Numbered from the stretch's first letter, positions 16,775-28,980 are shown. The stretch is 58,299 bases of DNA from a virus (IMGVR_UViG_3300021225_000305:1-58299), one strand, 5' to 3'. Numbers and translations: made by a program. The notes: generated by a model not told the origin, from the letters alone.

Positions 16775-16784
16775 GTGAAAATAA

Positions 16785-16815
16785 AAAAAGGGAATAGGCA
16801 ATTAAGCCTACCCCC
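16785..16815 (-). terminator. Terminator of the hammerhead-containing operon
   Basis: On the minus strand GGGTAGGC, loop TTAATT, GCCTATTCCC, then seven T. It follows the stop of the gene at 16844 and ends the leftward small-gene operon that starts at 20.41 kb. Confidence 0.8.
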
Positions 16816-16843
16816 TCTTTCGTTAACCAATAAACACCACGAA

Positions 16844-17122
16844 CTAATTGTATTGTAAATGTTTCTCTAAGAAGATAATCTCGCTGTCATCGAACAAGCT
16901 CCAGTCTCCAACTGAATCTTCATCTGCCTCCATGTCGAAGGTATAGGAGCTGTTCTCAATTGTAACTTCTTCCTCGTCCATGTTGATGAACCCTTGAAGG
17001 TAAACCTGAACTTCTTTCTTACCTGAGTCTACAATGTGAACTGAGTCAAAGGCTAGTAATCTACCTGACGGATACACGTCAAGTTCTACTTGGTCTGCTA
17101 TGTCCTTTATAAAGTATTTCAT
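16844..17122 (-). CDS. Unknown acidic protein, 92 aa
   Basis: 92 residues, beta-rich and very acidic in the second half (EEEVTIENSSY, EADEDSVGDW). Last gene of the 20.4-16.8 kb operon, overlapping the upstream gene by four bases. Not recognised. Confidence 0.65.
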   Translation of the reverse strand: MKYFIKDIADQVELDVYPSGRLLAFDSVHIVDSGKKEVQVYLQGFINMDEEEVTIENSSYTFDMEADEDSVGDWSLFDDSEIIFLEKHLQYN

Positions 17123-17526
17123 TTGTTGCCCTCCAATTCGTTTATCTCGTTTGTTAATTGTATTAATGCTTGTTTCCTCTTCTCAAGAGCCTCTCTCTTG
17201 ATTCGAGCCATGTCATCCTGATACGTCTCATGCCATGCAGAGAGAGACTCCAATACGGCAGAGGTAAGAGAGTTAAGTACCTCTTCAATGTTTGTGGCGT
17301 AGTTAAACTCCAAGGTAACTCCTCGGTAGCTAGAGAAGTTAACCTTGAACTCAACCTCGCCATGATTGAAGTACACAGAGGTGAACTCTCTCTCCTTATC
17401 GGCATTCATTTGGTGTACCCGTACGTTAGGGGTGTGTCTCACTATCTCTCCAATGATAGAGTAATTCTCATGCATATCTGCAACATTGCGTGCAGTAGTA
17501 ATTAGCTTTTCAATTTGTGTCTTCAT
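17119..17526 (-). CDS. Unknown early protein, 135 aa
   Basis: A mixed alpha/beta protein ending in a long charged coiled-coil helix (RIKREALEKRKQALIQL). The start is preceded by AACACAC and no Shine-Dalgarno, like most genes of this operon. Not recognised. Confidence 0.65.
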   Translation of the reverse strand: MKTQIEKLITTARNVADMHENYSIIGEIVRHTPNVRVHQMNADKEREFTSVYFNHGEVEFKVNFSSYRGVTLEFNYATNIEEVLNSLTSAVLESLSAWHETYQDDMARIKREALEKRKQALIQLTNEINELEGNK

Positions 17527-17534
17527 GTGTGTTA

Positions 17535-17690
17535 TTAATTAAGTAAGTTTTTAATTGCAGAGGCAAGGGGTATGCTCATGAGCAACCCGATGCCGATTAG
17601 TGTTATGGTCATGGACTCCATGGATATTCCCGTGTATAAGATAATGATCAGGACAGCGGCAATTCCATACGCGATTCTCTCGTTACGCAT
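17535..17690 (-). CDS. Small membrane protein, 51 aa
   Basis: MRNERIAYGIAAVLIIILY begins a 51-residue protein with two hydrophobic segments (residues 6-22 and 28-45). It has a strong GGAGGTG ribosome site, and its ATG overlaps the TAA of the gene upstream (ATGCGTAA). A small two-pass inner-membrane protein of unknown role. Confidence 0.6.
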   Translation of the reverse strand: MRNERIAYGIAAVLIIILYTGISMESMTITLIGIGLLMSIPLASAIKNLLN

Positions 17691-17859
17691 CTGCACCTCC
17701 AGTCAAGAACTCAATCTTGTTATTCTCCGCAAGGAATTTCTTGCCGTCCCAAGTTGTTACTTCGTGCAAATAGATTTCAGGGTTTGAACGAGTCCCTATG
17801 TTCTCGCTTAAGTAGTCTTTAATCTCGTAAACTACTCCGTTAATTTTAGCTTTCATCAT
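17683..17859 (-). CDS. Small early protein, 58 aa
   Basis: 58 residues (MMKAKINGVVYEIKDYLSEN, then TTWDGKKFLAENNKIEFL). The C-terminal TGGADA codons include the GGAGGTG ribosome site of the next gene. It overlaps the upstream stop (ATGATG). Function unknown. Confidence 0.6.
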   Translation of the reverse strand: MMKAKINGVVYEIKDYLSENIGTRSNPEIYLHEVTTWDGKKFLAENNKIEFLTGGADA

Positions 17860-18035
17860 GGCATTATTAATTTAAATTGTTCTTGGTCTTGTTTCCAATT
17901 CTCGTATTGGCTAACGGCATCAGAGAATGACTCTATCTGCATACCCCTCTTTGAATAGAGAAGTTTCTTATTGTGGTACACCTCGAAGTTGTACTGCTCT
18001 CCAACTTTATTGAAGAAAAATATTGTCTCGTTCAT
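17856..18035 (-). CDS. Small early protein, 59 aa
   Basis: 59 residues starting MNETIFFFNKVGEQYNFEV. Four-base overlaps at both ends with 18032 and 17859. Its central part looks like a small beta sheet followed by a helix. Function unknown. Confidence 0.6.
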   Translation of the reverse strand: MNETIFFFNKVGEQYNFEVYHNKKLLYSKRGMQIESFSDAVSQYENWKQDQEQFKLIMP

Positions 18036-18259
18036 AGGTGTACATTAGTTAGTTCTAATTCCACTCGGTAGTCATGACCTCTCCCTCCTGCTTCGTAAGT
18101 CACAAGATTACCCTGATAGGTAATCTCAACCTCGGCATCCATCTCTTCAGCCATCTCGAAGAATCTAGAGAGAGCCTTGTCTCGTGTGTGAAAGATTATG
18201 TCTTGTGTGCCTCCGATATGTTGTTGCATCGGGCGTTTCTTAATTGTTAGTACGTTCAT
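18032..18259 (-). CDS. Small early protein, 75 aa
   Basis: 75 residues (MNVLTIKKRPMQQHIGG, later AEVEITYQGNLVTYEAGGRG). It reads as an alternating beta/alpha miniprotein. Coupled by overlap to the 59-residue gene. Not recognised. Confidence 0.6.
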   Translation of the reverse strand: MNVLTIKKRPMQQHIGGTQDIIFHTRDKALSRFFEMAEEMDAEVEITYQGNLVTYEAGGRGHDYRVELELTNVHL

Positions 18260-18265
18260 GGCATT

Positions 18266-18466
18266 TTATATTTTAGTTGATTCGATTAGTGTGTAATAGT
18301 TATCGTAGTACTCGTTGAATAAATCTTGTGCGTCTTCAGTATAAACTTGTACGCCATCGTACTCTTCCCAAATTACCATCCTGTTGTGCCATTGTCTTTC
18401 TAGATGTGCCGATGCAAGTTCTGAAGCAAGTTCTACAGCATTAATTGTCATTTCGTGTGTGTTCAT
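18266..18466 (-). CDS. Small early protein, paralogue of the 19908 gene
   Basis: 66 residues from ATG 18466, chosen over an upstream ATG at 18514 because it has the AACACAC-ATG style leader. Residues 6-66 align along their length with the gene at 19908: TINAxxLASELASxHLER, then VIWEE, then YTE(D/E)A, and a C-terminal LIES. A duplicated gene within one operon; the role is unknown. Confidence 0.7.
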   Translation of the reverse strand: MNTHEMTINAVELASELASAHLERQWHNRMVIWEEYDGVQVYTEDAQDLFNEYYDNYYTLIESTKI

Positions 18467-18480
18467 GGTGTTTATTTTTT

Positions 18481-18714
18481 TTATTTGTTTAATTTTATTA
18501 TAACTCCCGACCATAGCTTATCAAACTCAGGTCTCTCTTTACTCCTCACGACCTCCAGTCCTCTCGCTTTTGCAAATTTTGAAACGTGTTTCGAAGTTGT
18601 TGCAGAGTACTTTCCGTTCTCAATTAATTTGTCTCCCTCAATCGTTGCTACATGAGTAGTGAATGAAATGAACTTGTTCCCGTCTAAGAACATATTGTGT
18701 CCTACTTTTTCCAT
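18481..18714 (-). CDS. Small early protein, 77 aa
   Basis: 77 residues (MEKVGHNMFLDGNKFISF start), with a basic central helix (HVSKFAKARGLEVVRSKERP). The start is preceded by AAACACC and no Shine-Dalgarno. Not recognised. Confidence 0.6.
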   Translation of the reverse strand: MEKVGHNMFLDGNKFISFTTHVATIEGDKLIENGKYSATTSKHVSKFAKARGLEVVRSKERPEFDKLWSGVIIKLNK

Positions 18715-18730
18715 GGTGTTTTTTTATTTA

Positions 18731-18940
18731 TTAATTAATTTTCTCAATTGTTAGTACGTCCATCATCTTGCGGTACATTAGCTTCGTGTAGTTCATAACG
18801 TGTTCCTCGTTGTTGAAGTTCACCTCACTCACTACCACTCTCCCGTAGACTTGAACCCGTAGTTCTACTTTAGCCTTGCATGGGAAGGTTATTGCTCCCT
18901 TTAACATCGGCAATTTCATATTGTGGTAACTCAGTTTCAT
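18731..18940 (-). CDS. Small early protein, 69 aa
   Basis: 69 residues. The N-terminal part is beta-rich (VELRVQVYGRVVVSEV) and the C-terminal part a helix with several Met/Lys. It overlaps the gene at 18937 by four bases. Not recognised. Confidence 0.6.
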   Translation of the reverse strand: MKLSYHNMKLPMLKGAITFPCKAKVELRVQVYGRVVVSEVNFNNEEHVMNYTKLMYRKMMDVLTIEKIN

Positions 18941-19131
18941 AAGTTGTGTTTTTTATGGTTCAGGAAGTTTACTATGCAGTCGTATTCAGGAAGTTTCCCG
19001 TCATTGAAATGAGACGTCTCGTATTCCTTATGCAGGTCTACCAATAGTTCGAACATTAGGTCGTATTCGATTTCAGCACCAATTATAGCATCGTATAACT
19101 TGGTGAATAAATAGAAGTGGTAATCTTTCAT
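18937..19131 (-). CDS. Small early protein, 64 aa
   Basis: A helical, acidic 64-residue protein (HFYLFTKLYDAIIGAEIEYD). It sits between the genes at 18731 and 19140 in the same operon. Not recognised. Confidence 0.6.
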   Translation of the reverse strand: MKDYHFYLFTKLYDAIIGAEIEYDLMFELLVDLHKEYETSHFNDGKLPEYDCIVNFLNHKKHNL

Positions 19132-19139
19132 GGTATTTA

Positions 19140-19421
19140 TTATTTTACGTTTATTGAATTAAGTACATTTTTGAATCCCTTGTACACAGCCCTCTTATAA
19201 GCCTCACTCTCGTGGTCTAACACGTTCGCCAACATCAAGCTAGTCATCGAGGCATAACGGAAGACAATCTCTTTGTAGACGTGTTCGAATGTCTCGCCTC
19301 TCATCAGAGACTGGCGAATCTCCTCCTCCGAATTTACCACGGGGTTACTGAATGAACCCTCTCGGTTTGCTCTCATGTGAGCATCAGCAATTTGCTTCTG
19401 AAGTTTAGTAATACGTTCCAT
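19140..19421 (-). CDS. Small early protein directly after hammerhead 1
   Basis: 93 residues, helical (RITKLQKQIADAHMRANREG). Cleavage of the hammerhead at 19439-19496 would leave its message with a 23-nt leader (bases 19444-19422) and a 5' hydroxyl. The leader is A/U-rich with CACAC just before ATG and no Shine-Dalgarno. Function unknown. Confidence 0.65.
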   Translation of the reverse strand: MERITKLQKQIADAHMRANREGSFSNPVVNSEEEIRQSLMRGETFEHVYKEIVFRYASMTSLMLANVLDHESEAYKRAVYKGFKNVLNSINVK

Positions 19422-19438
19422 GTGTGATTTATTTATTT

Positions 19439-19496
19439 GGTTAATACGAGAGGTTCACACCCCTCGTTTCGTCCAATCAGGACTCGTCAGTTAACC
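19439..19496 (-). ncRNA. Type I hammerhead ribozyme 1
   Basis: Reading the minus strand: stem I GGTTAA (19496-19491); core CTGACGA (19490-19484); stem II GTCC / loop TGATT / GGAC; GAAA (19470-19467); stem III CGAGGGG / loop TGTGAA / CCTCTCG; then T-A and stem I TTAACC (19444-19439). All conserved hammerhead positions are present, including the A15.1-U16.1 pair and A at the cleavage position. Predicted cleavage is between 19445 and 19444. The 5' end shares its first base with the TAG stop of the gene at 19496. Stem I is the open stem, so type I. Confidence 0.93.
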
Positions 19497-19837
19497 TAGA
19501 ACTCGATAAAGTACTCAGGGTTGAAGGTGTATTGCTCCCCTTTGAACTCAGGGTTGTACACTAGCGTTCCCTCCTCGTTAAGCTTCATCCCTATGCACTC
19601 CTGAGTGAACTTCATGCACATGGCACCCACTAGAATCCTTGCACTCTCTTTGTCCATGGCAGTGATAATCTTAGCTACCAAGGTTGGTTCAGGACTTTCG
19701 ATATACTCGCCCATGTCTTCTCTTGTAGCGACTATCTCTCCCTCGAAGGCGTGTACCAAGGCGTTAGTAATTGTCTCGAAGGTGTACGGGTTATTGTTAA
19801 GCCCGATGTTTAATTGAAATACGTTCATGTTTTCCAT
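19496..19837 (-). CDS. Early protein between two hammerheads, 113 aa
   Basis: 113 residues (MENMNVFQLNIGLNNNPY). Mixed fold, acidic, with Cys residues near the middle. A second in-frame ATG lies at 19828. Its coding region is bracketed by hammerhead 2 upstream and hammerhead 1 starting at its stop codon, so self-cleavage of both would release it as a single-gene RNA. Function unknown. Confidence 0.65.
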   Translation of the reverse strand: MENMNVFQLNIGLNNNPYTFETITNALVHAFEGEIVATREDMGEYIESPEPTLVAKIITAMDKESARILVGAMCMKFTQECIGMKLNEEGTLVYNPEFKGEQYTFNPEYFIEF

Positions 19838-19855
19838 GTGTTTAAAAAATTAATT

Positions 19856-19907
19856 GGTTTATACGGGGCGAACCCCGTTTCGAGTACTCAACTCTCATCA
19901 GTAAACC
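19856..19907 (-). ncRNA. Type I hammerhead ribozyme 2
   Basis: Reading the minus strand: stem I GGTTTA (19907-19902); core CTGATGA; stem II GAGT / loop TGAGT / ACTC; GAAA (19881-19878); stem III CGGGG / loop TTCG / CCCCG; then T-A and stem I TAAACC (19861-19856). Every helix is perfectly paired. Predicted cleavage is between 19862 and 19861. It begins immediately after the TAA of the gene at 19908 and leaves a 24-nt leader on the next gene (19837). Confidence 0.95.
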
Positions 19908-20096
19908 TTATATTACCTTAGATTCAATTAGGTTGAAATAGTCCATGTAAAGGTTGTGAAATATCTCATTAGCCTCTTCTGTGTAATACTTTCCGTCCTC
20001 TTCCCAAATTACTATTTTATCCGTATACACTCTCTCAAGGTGTAAGGAAGCTAATTCAGAGGCAAGGTCTTGTGCGTTGATTGTTCTAGTAAACAT
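19908..20096 (-). CDS. Small early protein, paralogue of the 18266 gene
   Basis: 62 residues, first gene of the operon. TINAQDLASELASLHLER and the C-terminal LIES match the gene at 18266. It is preceded by a leader of about 310 nt with a tRNA-like fold and followed at once by hammerhead 2. Function unknown. Confidence 0.7.
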   Translation of the reverse strand: MFTRTINAQDLASELASLHLERVYTDKIVIWEEDGKYYTEEANEIFHNLYMDYFNLIESKVI

Positions 20097-20406
20097 AGTT
20101 GTGTGTGTTAATTGGTTAGCGAAACGTAGGGACTCGAACCCCTAGGTCTCTCTCACGAGCAAACCTCTCCGAGCGTTTCAGTGTTTCCGATATGTCAAAG
20201 AACTGCGGTCTTTATAGTCTTTTCCGTGTATGACTAGTAATCTCTCCGTGTAACGGCTGTAGCATAGGTGATTACAATCTCTATCTAACTAAACTCTCTC
20301 TCCTTAACTACCTCTATTCGAAGAACACTCTTGTGTATATCTGATATCTCATCAGTGCGGGTAGTAATCAGTAAGTAAGCTTTCGTTGTTGTTCCGTTGA
20401 ACACTG
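20097..20406 (-). other. Long structured leader of the hammerhead operon
   Basis: About 310 nt with no plausible ORF between the promoter at 20414 and the first ATG at 20096. Besides the tRNA-like element it contains small hairpins on the minus strand, such as CTGAT/ATCAG around 20341-20355, TAGTC/GACTA around 20216-20237, and an outer ACTACC/GGTAGT pairing. It could be a regulatory leader. Confidence 0.45.
20120..20180 (-). ncRNA. tRNA-like element lacking a normal anticodon arm
   Basis: On the minus strand TGAAACG (20180-20174) can pair with CGTTTCG (20126-20120) as a 7-bp acceptor helix (one G-U). It encloses a D-arm-like stretch (CGGAGAGG...) and a T arm TAGGG/CCCTA containing GGGTTCGAGTCCC, the classic tRNA motif. 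Only 11 nt lie between the D-arm and T-arm regions, so there is no room for an anticodon arm. It ends 23 bases before the ATG of the first operon gene. A decayed tRNA or a tRNA mimic used for processing is possible. Confidence 0.45.
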
Positions 20407-20414
20407 CAAATGTA
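20407..20414 (-). promoter_or_regulatory. Promoter TTTG / TACATTTG (leftward)
   Basis: The minus strand has TTTG, 21 bases, then TACATTTG (20414-20407), the Bacteroidota promoter layout. It would drive the leader, both hammerheads and the small genes down to the terminator at 16785. Confidence 0.65.
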
Positions 20415-21361
20415 TGGTAATTAAAAAGTTTATTCCAAATTTATTTTCAAAGATGTTCTAAAACACTGATTAGTTCGTCACGAAGAAATGCGGCTTACAG
20501 AGCGTCATGACATCTCAAAACATCAGTAAAATAAGGGAAAATAAAAATAAATGAAAAAAAAACGAAAATATTTTTGATTGTAGGAATGATAAGGGTTTGA
20601 GGTATGACATGGAGAAAAATGTGAGGATTGGCGTGACTTGTAGAAGGTCACAAAAGACTGGAGATTGCGGTTTTTTCGTGCCTGTTTTGAGTGCTTGTTG
20701 TTCACCTGAGGCTGTTTTTCGGGTTCGTCTCAGGTATTTTTATATGGCAAAATGTGTATTGAATTGTGCCGATAATTGGGGGCGAAATGTTGGCGTGTTT
20801 GTGTGTGAATTTCAGGTAGTGTTTCTAGGGTTATTTGGTGCCGTGTTTGAATGTCATTTATCGGCATGGATGAGACGTTATGTTTTGGGGTTCATTGGAG
20901 GGTTATAAGAGAGGTTCATGCATGAGATAATATGTAGGCATGGGAGAGAGTAATACGCCACGTTTACGGGCTTGTTTCGAGGTCATGCTTTTGCCGAGGT
21001 GTGAGCTTCGGGATCCCAATATTGATGCGGGCTGTAGCGATTTATGGTGCCGAGAGATTGAGGCTTGGCTTGGGCTTTTCTCAGTGTTGACGGGCGATGC
21101 AGAGCTTTGGGGCTTGGCTTTTGGCTTCAATTGACCACAGACGGGGGTGGGTTCGCAAACACGCATTTCCTGGAGGCGAGCGGGGTGGCCTGGTGTGTGG
21201 GAAACCCCTCTCTTTAAACAGCTTGCCCTCTCCCTAAACATCTCGCCCCTTTCCCCTTTCGATCTGGGTTTTCGTTCCCCTTGATTCCCTTTTCGTGGCC
21301 ATTTATTTACCTCTGAGTAAAACTTTTCCCGTATTTTGTTAACTGGGACGTAAAAAAGGTG
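20415..21361. other. Non-coding block, G-rich on the plus strand
   Basis: About 950 bases without a convincing gene. From about 20.58 kb the plus strand becomes G/T-rich, unlike the flanks, and it then has a pyrimidine-rich tract (about 21206-21300). That tract includes a near-repeat of about 20 bases (CTCTxxxTAAACAxCTxGCC twice, 21211-21250). ORFs at 20597-20908 and 20903-21469 have implausible composition. It may be a remnant or the leader region of the adjacent PP-loop gene island. Confidence 0.5.
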
Positions 21362-28729: not shown

Positions 28730-28980
28730 ATAGAGTCTCGGTTCATAAAGATAGACTTAATTGATTCGTAAGAAGTTTTGAATAGGCGTGGGTTTCCCAT
28801 GCCTATTTCTATTACAACATAGTCTGTAATCAACTCGTCAACCTGGCGTATAGACATTACATCTCGGATATCAAACATAGTGGTAACTAATTGTTCTGAT
28901 GGAGTGAGGTCAAAGAAGTCTATTCCTCCCGTATTGGTAAGGACCTCCATAGCCTCGATATAATAGCCTTTAATCAACAT
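28726..28980 (-). CDS. Unknown early protein, 84 aa
   Basis: 84 residues, acidic (DFFDLTPSEQLVTTMFDIRD). Last gene of the leftward run from 30.1 kb; overlaps 28970. Not recognised. Confidence 0.6.
   Translation of the reverse strand: MLIKGYYIEAMEVLTNTGGIDFFDLTPSEQLVTTMFDIRDVMSIRQVDELITDYVVIEIGMGNPRLFKTSYESIKSIFMNRDSI

Follow-up and report, generated by a model that had tools for sequence, protein, structure and literature searches.

In this study, we examined an operon of small genes in a 58,299-base virus record of IMG/VR (IMGVR_UViG_3300021225_000305; this whole stretch is referred to as the window), in which two hammerhead ribozymes (HHRs; HHR1 and HHR2 denote the window's first and second copies) separate the genes nearest the promoter. 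The window most likely belongs to a Bacteroidota phage, since its terminase and portal proteins have distant relatives in phages of Flavobacteriia (elemoviruses and phages of Cellulophaga, Tenacibaculum and Maribacter), as well as in one uncultured podovirus; comparison of the operon with cultured phages by blastn returned no match. In line with the initial annotation, the operon (Table 1) is laid out as promoter, leader, gene, hammerhead, gene, hammerhead, further small genes and a strong terminator hairpin with a U-run, with the leader measuring about 300 rather than about 310 nucleotides (nt) and the "some ten" further genes counted as 11. The promoter is the sole full match to TTTG-N18-22-TAnnTTTG within the operon, no internal promoter matching the Bacteroidota consensus was found between the genes, and the same promoter form is retained in L123, which also carries a gene 1 homologue. 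The terminator region (16780-16850) folds at -24.4 kcal/mol (z -4.6), a stability reached by none of 200 shuffles.

Both ribozymes were found with a descriptor that requires the catalytic core plus all three helices. When both strands of the window were scanned, it matched HHR1 and HHR2 only, against a chance expectation of 0.05 per window from first-order Markov shuffles. Each has the full core (CUGANGA ... GAAA ... UH, where H is not G) and three helices, with helix I open, of 6/4/7 base pairs (bp) in HHR1 and 6/4/9 bp in HHR2, the latter having a fold z of -3.6. A covariance model whose training set includes both HHRs scored them at 63.7 and 59.0 bits. Their Rfam scores of 29.4, 22.7 and 18.3 bits all lie below the gathering thresholds; the nearest relatives there, which have the same core and topology, are RAGATH-1-hammerhead (RF03152; 29.4 versus a gathering score of 56.3 bits) and Hammerhead_1 (RF00163; 18.3 versus 34 bits). 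A failed gathering score is a matter of a database threshold and no chemical criterion, and the curated models omit this group of HHRs. The position of the two ribozymes relative to the genes is closely similar: the last base of the gene 1 stop codon directly precedes helix I of HHR1, and the gene 2 stop codon shares one base with HHR2, while the predicted cuts fall 24 nt ahead of the gene 2 ATG and 23 nt ahead of the gene 3 ATG. Because the topology is type I, the ribozyme body would remain on the upstream RNA, and the downstream message would keep just six bases of helix I followed by an A/U-rich leader.

Searching with the operon proteins identified nine distinct contigs of the same phage group (L190, L193-L200), all of which retain one to three HHRs with intact cores and good scores. 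It is thus highly improbable that the hammerhead-like sequences are chance matches or dead relics, given also how few matches are expected by chance, even though decay does occur in distant relatives, helix II being broken in elemovirus E and the same score being found in elemoviruses D and F. We consider HHR1 and HHR2 to be real type I hammerheads and conserved punctuation, predicted on the basis of their sequence to cleave themselves. In the relatives, HHRs are confined to promoter-proximal positions and always lie upstream of a conserved block of later genes (gene orders in Table 1). A lack of hammerheads throughout the relatives, which would have contradicted the initial annotation, is therefore not what we observe. 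Over 52 nt, HHR1, which separates families I and O, has the same sequence as the L199 HHR between families AK and V, and the 180 nt on each side of this identical element are without similarity. Other pairs of contigs have the upstream gene and the HHR in common and differ in the downstream gene, or the reverse. Because the identical HHR has unrelated flanks and the other pairs share one side only, genes act as cassettes together with their ribozyme and leader, with the HHR forming the seam at which gene content changes. These comparative data favour modular, swappable cassettes at least as much as a putative effect on the dosage or stability of the first products, which the initial annotation had suggested.

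The same seams invite another explanation, namely that HHRs are kept mainly as short stretches of homology for exchange, or as passengers of the cassettes, with cleavage barely affecting expression. The 52-nt identity between unrelated flanks and the one-sided pairs are what such a process would leave behind. Homology alone, however, would not preserve the core, the pairing of very different helices and a fixed distance to the ATG across unrelated phages, and in L190 and L199 the upstream genes are 96% alike yet the HHRs differ. We therefore find this explanation quite unlikely and prefer cassettes whose ribozymes act as punctuation. Among the relatives we also observed HHR variants with a much longer helix III (L190:2082-2191, L195:2646-2718 and L196:500-577; start GAAAGGATTAAATG or GAAAGCGATTAAACG), in which helix III contains an extra hairpin, possibly a ligand or protein site.

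Table 1 Features of the operon, gene orders in the window and its relatives (letters, protein families; slash, HHR) and a variant pair in cultured phages
Feature	Position	Strand	Basis or description
Whole operon	20439-16783	minus	One promoter, leader, gene 1, HHR1, gene 2, HHR2, 11 further genes, terminator
Bacteroidota-type promoter	20407..20439	minus	TTTG-N21-TACATTTG; consensus match
Untranslated leader, about 300 nt	20097..20400	minus	Begins ~7 nt past the -7 box and runs up to the ATG of gene 1 (20096)
boxA-like element	20187..20202	minus	TTCTTTGACATATCGG; just upstream of the tRNA-like element
tRNA-like element	20120..20180	minus	7-bp acceptor-like helix, GG linker, hairpin, T-arm with UUCGAGU loop
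Gene 1, 62 amino acids (aa), family I	19908..20096	minus	Open reading frame (ORF); homologues in L122-L125
HHR1, type I	19856..19907	minus	Descriptor scan and covariance model; predicted cut between 19862 and 19861
Gene 2, 113 aa, family O	19496..19837	minus	ORF; weak match to PHROG 11722 (unknown function)
HHR2, type I	19439..19496	minus	Descriptor scan and covariance model; predicted cut between 19445 and 19444
Gene 3, 93 aa, family G	19140..19421	minus	ORF; kept in 8/10 contigs compared; heads the 11-gene HHR-free run
Genes 4-13, families AA, A, Q, I, B, C, J, R, D, E	16844..19131	minus	ORFs
Intrinsic terminator	16783..16820	minus	16-bp hairpin and U-run; fold energy
Gene order, window			I / O / G
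Gene order, L193			I / V / O / G
Gene order, L190			I AB AK / O / u / u G
Gene order, L199			AK / V AQ / AS O / G
Gene order, L197			AR / AF AS O / AG G
Gene order, L198			AR / AF / AG G
Gene order, L195			AF u u V AQ / O AG G
Gene order, L196			u / V / AC AD / A
Gene order, L200			AC AD / G
Gene order, L194			AC AD / AA
Elemovirus HHR variant pair	MT497078 27095-27152; MT497114 27441-27498	minus	Elemovirus E (MT497078; helix II broken) versus elemovirus A (MT497114; helix II intact)

The arrangement extends well beyond this phage group. A scan of IMG/VR restricted to the core and spacing of the hammerhead, irrespective of genes, returned at least 120 stretches. Among the matches listed, full folding was found in 41 of 124, compared with 0.16% in a null in which the bases around the fixed letters were shuffled. 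This is a fairer test than our alignment A2, which has compensating changes in 12 of 15 pairs among rows that were selected by pairing. From 68 viral loci, the structural scan yielded 94 type I HHRs that differ from one another, with two to five HHRs on one strand in 23 stretches. Outside the core, the members of this group have in common a helix I of 6 bp, a helix II of 4 bp and a pentaloop of the form UNANU. For 81% of the 94 HHRs, the stop of an upstream ORF falls between -12 and +15 nt relative to the ribozyme (random positions 5%, opposite strand 3%), an excess that is partly forced because the core CUGA itself contains a stop; 12 stops immediately precede helix I, and another 12 share one base with it. 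For 70%, the start of an ORF lies 10-45 nt past the cut (random 14%, opposite strand 11%), most often at 19-27 nt. The layout for which the initial annotation had proposed a search, with hammerheads between a stop codon and the next ATG, therefore recurs in the viral loci scanned. At the gathering level, Rfam recognised none of these HHRs in 14 further loci; since it missed the group in every locus tested, the group is largely unannotated. Among 395 Bacteroidota genomes, no HHR of this type was found on host chromosomes, which is weak evidence because the filters were strict and only a small number of candidates was scored in each genome. Arrays of five and four hammerheads were also seen at L040:544-2939 (minus strand) and L090:11645-13185; these have a helix I of 4-5 bp and mostly other loop II types, and form a second structural subclass in GC-richer phages.

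The placement of the stop codons also bears on how the ribozymes might be used. Almost every stop adjoins or overlaps either helix I or the core, and thus falls inside the footprint of a terminating ribosome. Such a ribosome could cover the 5′ strand of the ribozyme, so that cleavage would take place only if the upstream gene were poorly translated and the HHR would serve as a translation sensor. Simple compaction would give the same placement of the stop, and we regard a switch of this kind as unlikely compared with constitutive punctuation of the message.

Among cultured phages, elemoviruses A, B and C carry a type I HHR scoring 48-49 bits directly after or overlapping the upstream TAG. The same site in elemoviruses D, E and F scores 37 bits, and helix II, which is intact in A, B and C (GGTT/AACC), is unpaired in E (GACT/AACC), with D and F scoring as E does. 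Flavobacterium sp. BAL314 is the host of all elemoviruses in this variant set. An HHR of Cellulophaga phage phi19:3 (21817-21769) contains the gp051 stop codon according to the depositors' annotation, and gp050 starts about 30-35 nt past the predicted cut. Elemovirus E (L176, MT497078) additionally has a lone type III HHR at 28941 on the minus strand, in the leader of its first small gene and just upstream of the ATG.

In the window, gene 1 is preceded by no ribozyme but by a leader in which two modules, a boxA-like and a tRNA-like element, are conserved in seven variants. The tRNA-like fold seen in the initial annotation is real, and its helices covary in these variants; we rejected the element as a true tRNA, as ARAGORN reported none and Rfam gave no tRNA match at E up to 10. 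The element has no D-arm and no recognisable anticodon arm, and its T-arm loop is of the UUCGANU or UUCRANU type among the variants. Changes on both sides occur in six pairs, and the covariation score was matched by 0 of 500 shuffles, with one T-arm pair open in four of the seven variants. We also considered the element as a third, degenerate hammerhead and rejected this, as L123 no longer has the required GGTTTGC/GCTAACC pairing but maintains the tRNA-like pairing through compensating changes. In each of the seven variants, 22-24 nt separate the end of the acceptor helix from the ATG of gene 1, a spacing like that after the HHRs, and the tRNA-like element and the HHRs are followed by matching sequences (CUAACCAAUUAA, UAAACCAAUUAA, UUAACCAAAUAA). 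For family AF, a near-identical leader follows the tRNA-like element in L195 and an HHR in L197 and L198. From this we infer that tRNA-type 3′ processing would make the end of the gene 1 mRNA, as the ribozymes would for genes 2 and 3: an RNase Z-like cut after the tRNA-like discriminator position, at or near 20119/20118, would most likely produce a gene 1 leader nearly equal to the HHR leaders. An RNase Z route fits, because 178 of 207 phage tRNAs in the matched loci have no encoded CCA.

The boxA-like element was absent from the initial annotation. Of 21 genome matches to a 20-mer that closely resembles it, GTTCTTTGACATATTGGTAA, five fall between 16S-tRNA and 23S in rRNA operons of Bacteroidota contigs (L155, L158, L160, L162 and L170), and the window reads CGG where this 20-mer reads TGG. 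The space between 16S-tRNA and 23S is a boxA position in rRNA operons (PMC10250234). Similar elements also occur in the leaders of two other phages, L007 and MW202828, and 24 of the 29 viral stretches that matched have the boxA motif inside phage tRNA arrays, ahead of real tRNAs, a count biased by the search pattern, which demanded a T-arm. An rRNA-type boxA, TTCTTTGACATATTGGTAAA, was seen directly ahead of tRNA genes in the tRNA arrays of large viral contigs of up to 256 kb (L128:4336 (reverse complement), L137:9574, L139:3378, L148:8551 and about 20 others), which suggests antitermination of phage tRNA operons. A strongly conserved boxA site outside the rRNA operons, with the common upstream flank ttgaagggagactgggaacaacagagaaga, was observed in the Bacteroides genomes L161, L164, L167, L173 and L174. 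The leader boxA probably keeps RNA polymerase processive across the untranslated leader.

Since boxA precedes real tRNA arrays in so many of the matched stretches, a tRNA origin of the leader element is likely. It may then be asked whether the element is simply a decayed phage tRNA, left with the boxA of a tRNA array and playing no part in forming the end of gene 1. A relic would be expected to drift, whereas here compensating changes hold the fold in seven variants and the distance to four different first genes is constant. We accordingly judge mere decay to be somewhat unlikely and favour an element retained for making the gene 1 end.

Taken together, we think it probable that type I hammerheads serve as mRNA punctuation in this Bacteroidota phage operon, combined with a tRNA-like start, a boxA leader and exchangeable cassettes. 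Each HHR, starting at or in the upstream stop codon, would cut 23-24 nt ahead of the next ATG; the upstream message would carry the folded ribozyme body at its 3′ end, and the downstream one would begin with a short, unstructured, A/U-rich leader bearing a 5′-hydroxyl. Genes 1 and 2 would thereby become single-gene RNAs, while the last 11 genes would remain on one message, an outcome already proposed in the initial annotation and in keeping with the anatomy. Cassettes of leader, gene and ribozyme could be swapped at the ribozymes with their neighbours undisturbed. Several points weigh against this interpretation. Cleavage in the infected cell is something that we infer; it is not indispensable everywhere, because the elemovirus D/E/F site has a broken helix II; the stop-codon excess is, as mentioned, partly forced; and the putative RNase Z cut is argued from geometry, for an element that ARAGORN rejects as a tRNA. 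A broader and more tentative possibility is that 5′ ends are made by two interchangeable kinds of element, the tRNA-like one through host tRNA 3′ processing and the HHRs by cutting themselves. Every promoter-proximal gene would then receive the same leader of about 23 nt (NUAACCAAWUAA...), with its stop codon inside the next gene's ribozyme, and the genes would act as plug-in cassettes for fast exchange under a boxA-antiterminated transcript.

As for the genes themselves, comparison of gene 1 with Pfam and PHROG gave no match, and the punctuated genes had no convincing match in Pfam and matched only PHROGs of unknown function. Genes 3-13 resemble an ordinary coupled operon, with stop/start overlap at 5 of 10 junctions and no ribozymes between them. 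Family I has two paralogues in the operon, gene 1 ahead of HHR1 and another at 18466-18266, deep in the unpunctuated block.

The role of phage hammerheads is a long-standing question. The strict order of stop, ribozyme, leader and ATG in dozens of viral loci argues that many of them produce messages of gene size whose ends are defined, and the seams between cassettes hint at a reason why this would be of use to a phage. With intact copies in elemoviruses A, B and C and Cellulophaga phi19:3, and a relative with a broken helix II (elemovirus E) in the same host, the question is directly testable.

tRNA punctuation, in which tRNA processing releases mRNAs, is known from mitochondria. Similarly, the tRNA-like element of the window immediately precedes a coding sequence, and its putative 3′ processing would create an mRNA 5′ end; unlike those tRNAs, it is reduced in its arms and combined with ribozymes. 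As in rRNA boxA (PMC10250234) and lambda-type nut sites, the window has a boxA-type sequence in an untranslated leader, and a related motif precedes 23S in Bacteroidota rRNA operons; in contrast to lambda-type nut, no boxB or N-like protein was identified for the window, and antitermination is putative.

Contrary to the initial annotation, which knew of no such case in phages, the tandem intercistronic arrangement is not new. As set out in the main text of Perreault et al. 2011 (PMC3088659), multiple HHRs flank single genes or short blocks in prophages (Clostridium scindens, Azorhizobium caulinodans and the Agrobacterium tumefaciens ardA array); single-gene-length mRNAs were proposed, and cleavage was shown with three arrays in vitro and with one (A. 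tumefaciens) in E. coli. The window's group likewise has several HHRs flanking single genes or short blocks; the earlier arrays differ in sitting in prophages and in comprising HHR types I-III. The same text describes HHphage of the lytic haloviruses HF1/HF2, also ahead of a start codon (by 13 nt), which unlike the window's copies is a single HHR variant with an altered core, in an archaeal host and outside any tandem array (PMC3088659). That main text, to which our comparison was confined, makes no mention of an overlap with stop codons, a leader of constant length, seams between cassettes, boxA or a tRNA-like start. In the open-access literature, which excludes most subscription journals and preprints, we found nothing else on intercistronic phage HHRs, nor, within this limited scope, on stop-codon geometry, HHR cassette seams or a boxA and tRNA-like leader. 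In conclusion, the kind of system is known and the detail of its design appears to be a new variation on it: the stop codon in the ribozyme, the fixed leader, the boxA and tRNA-like start, and the exchangeable cassettes.

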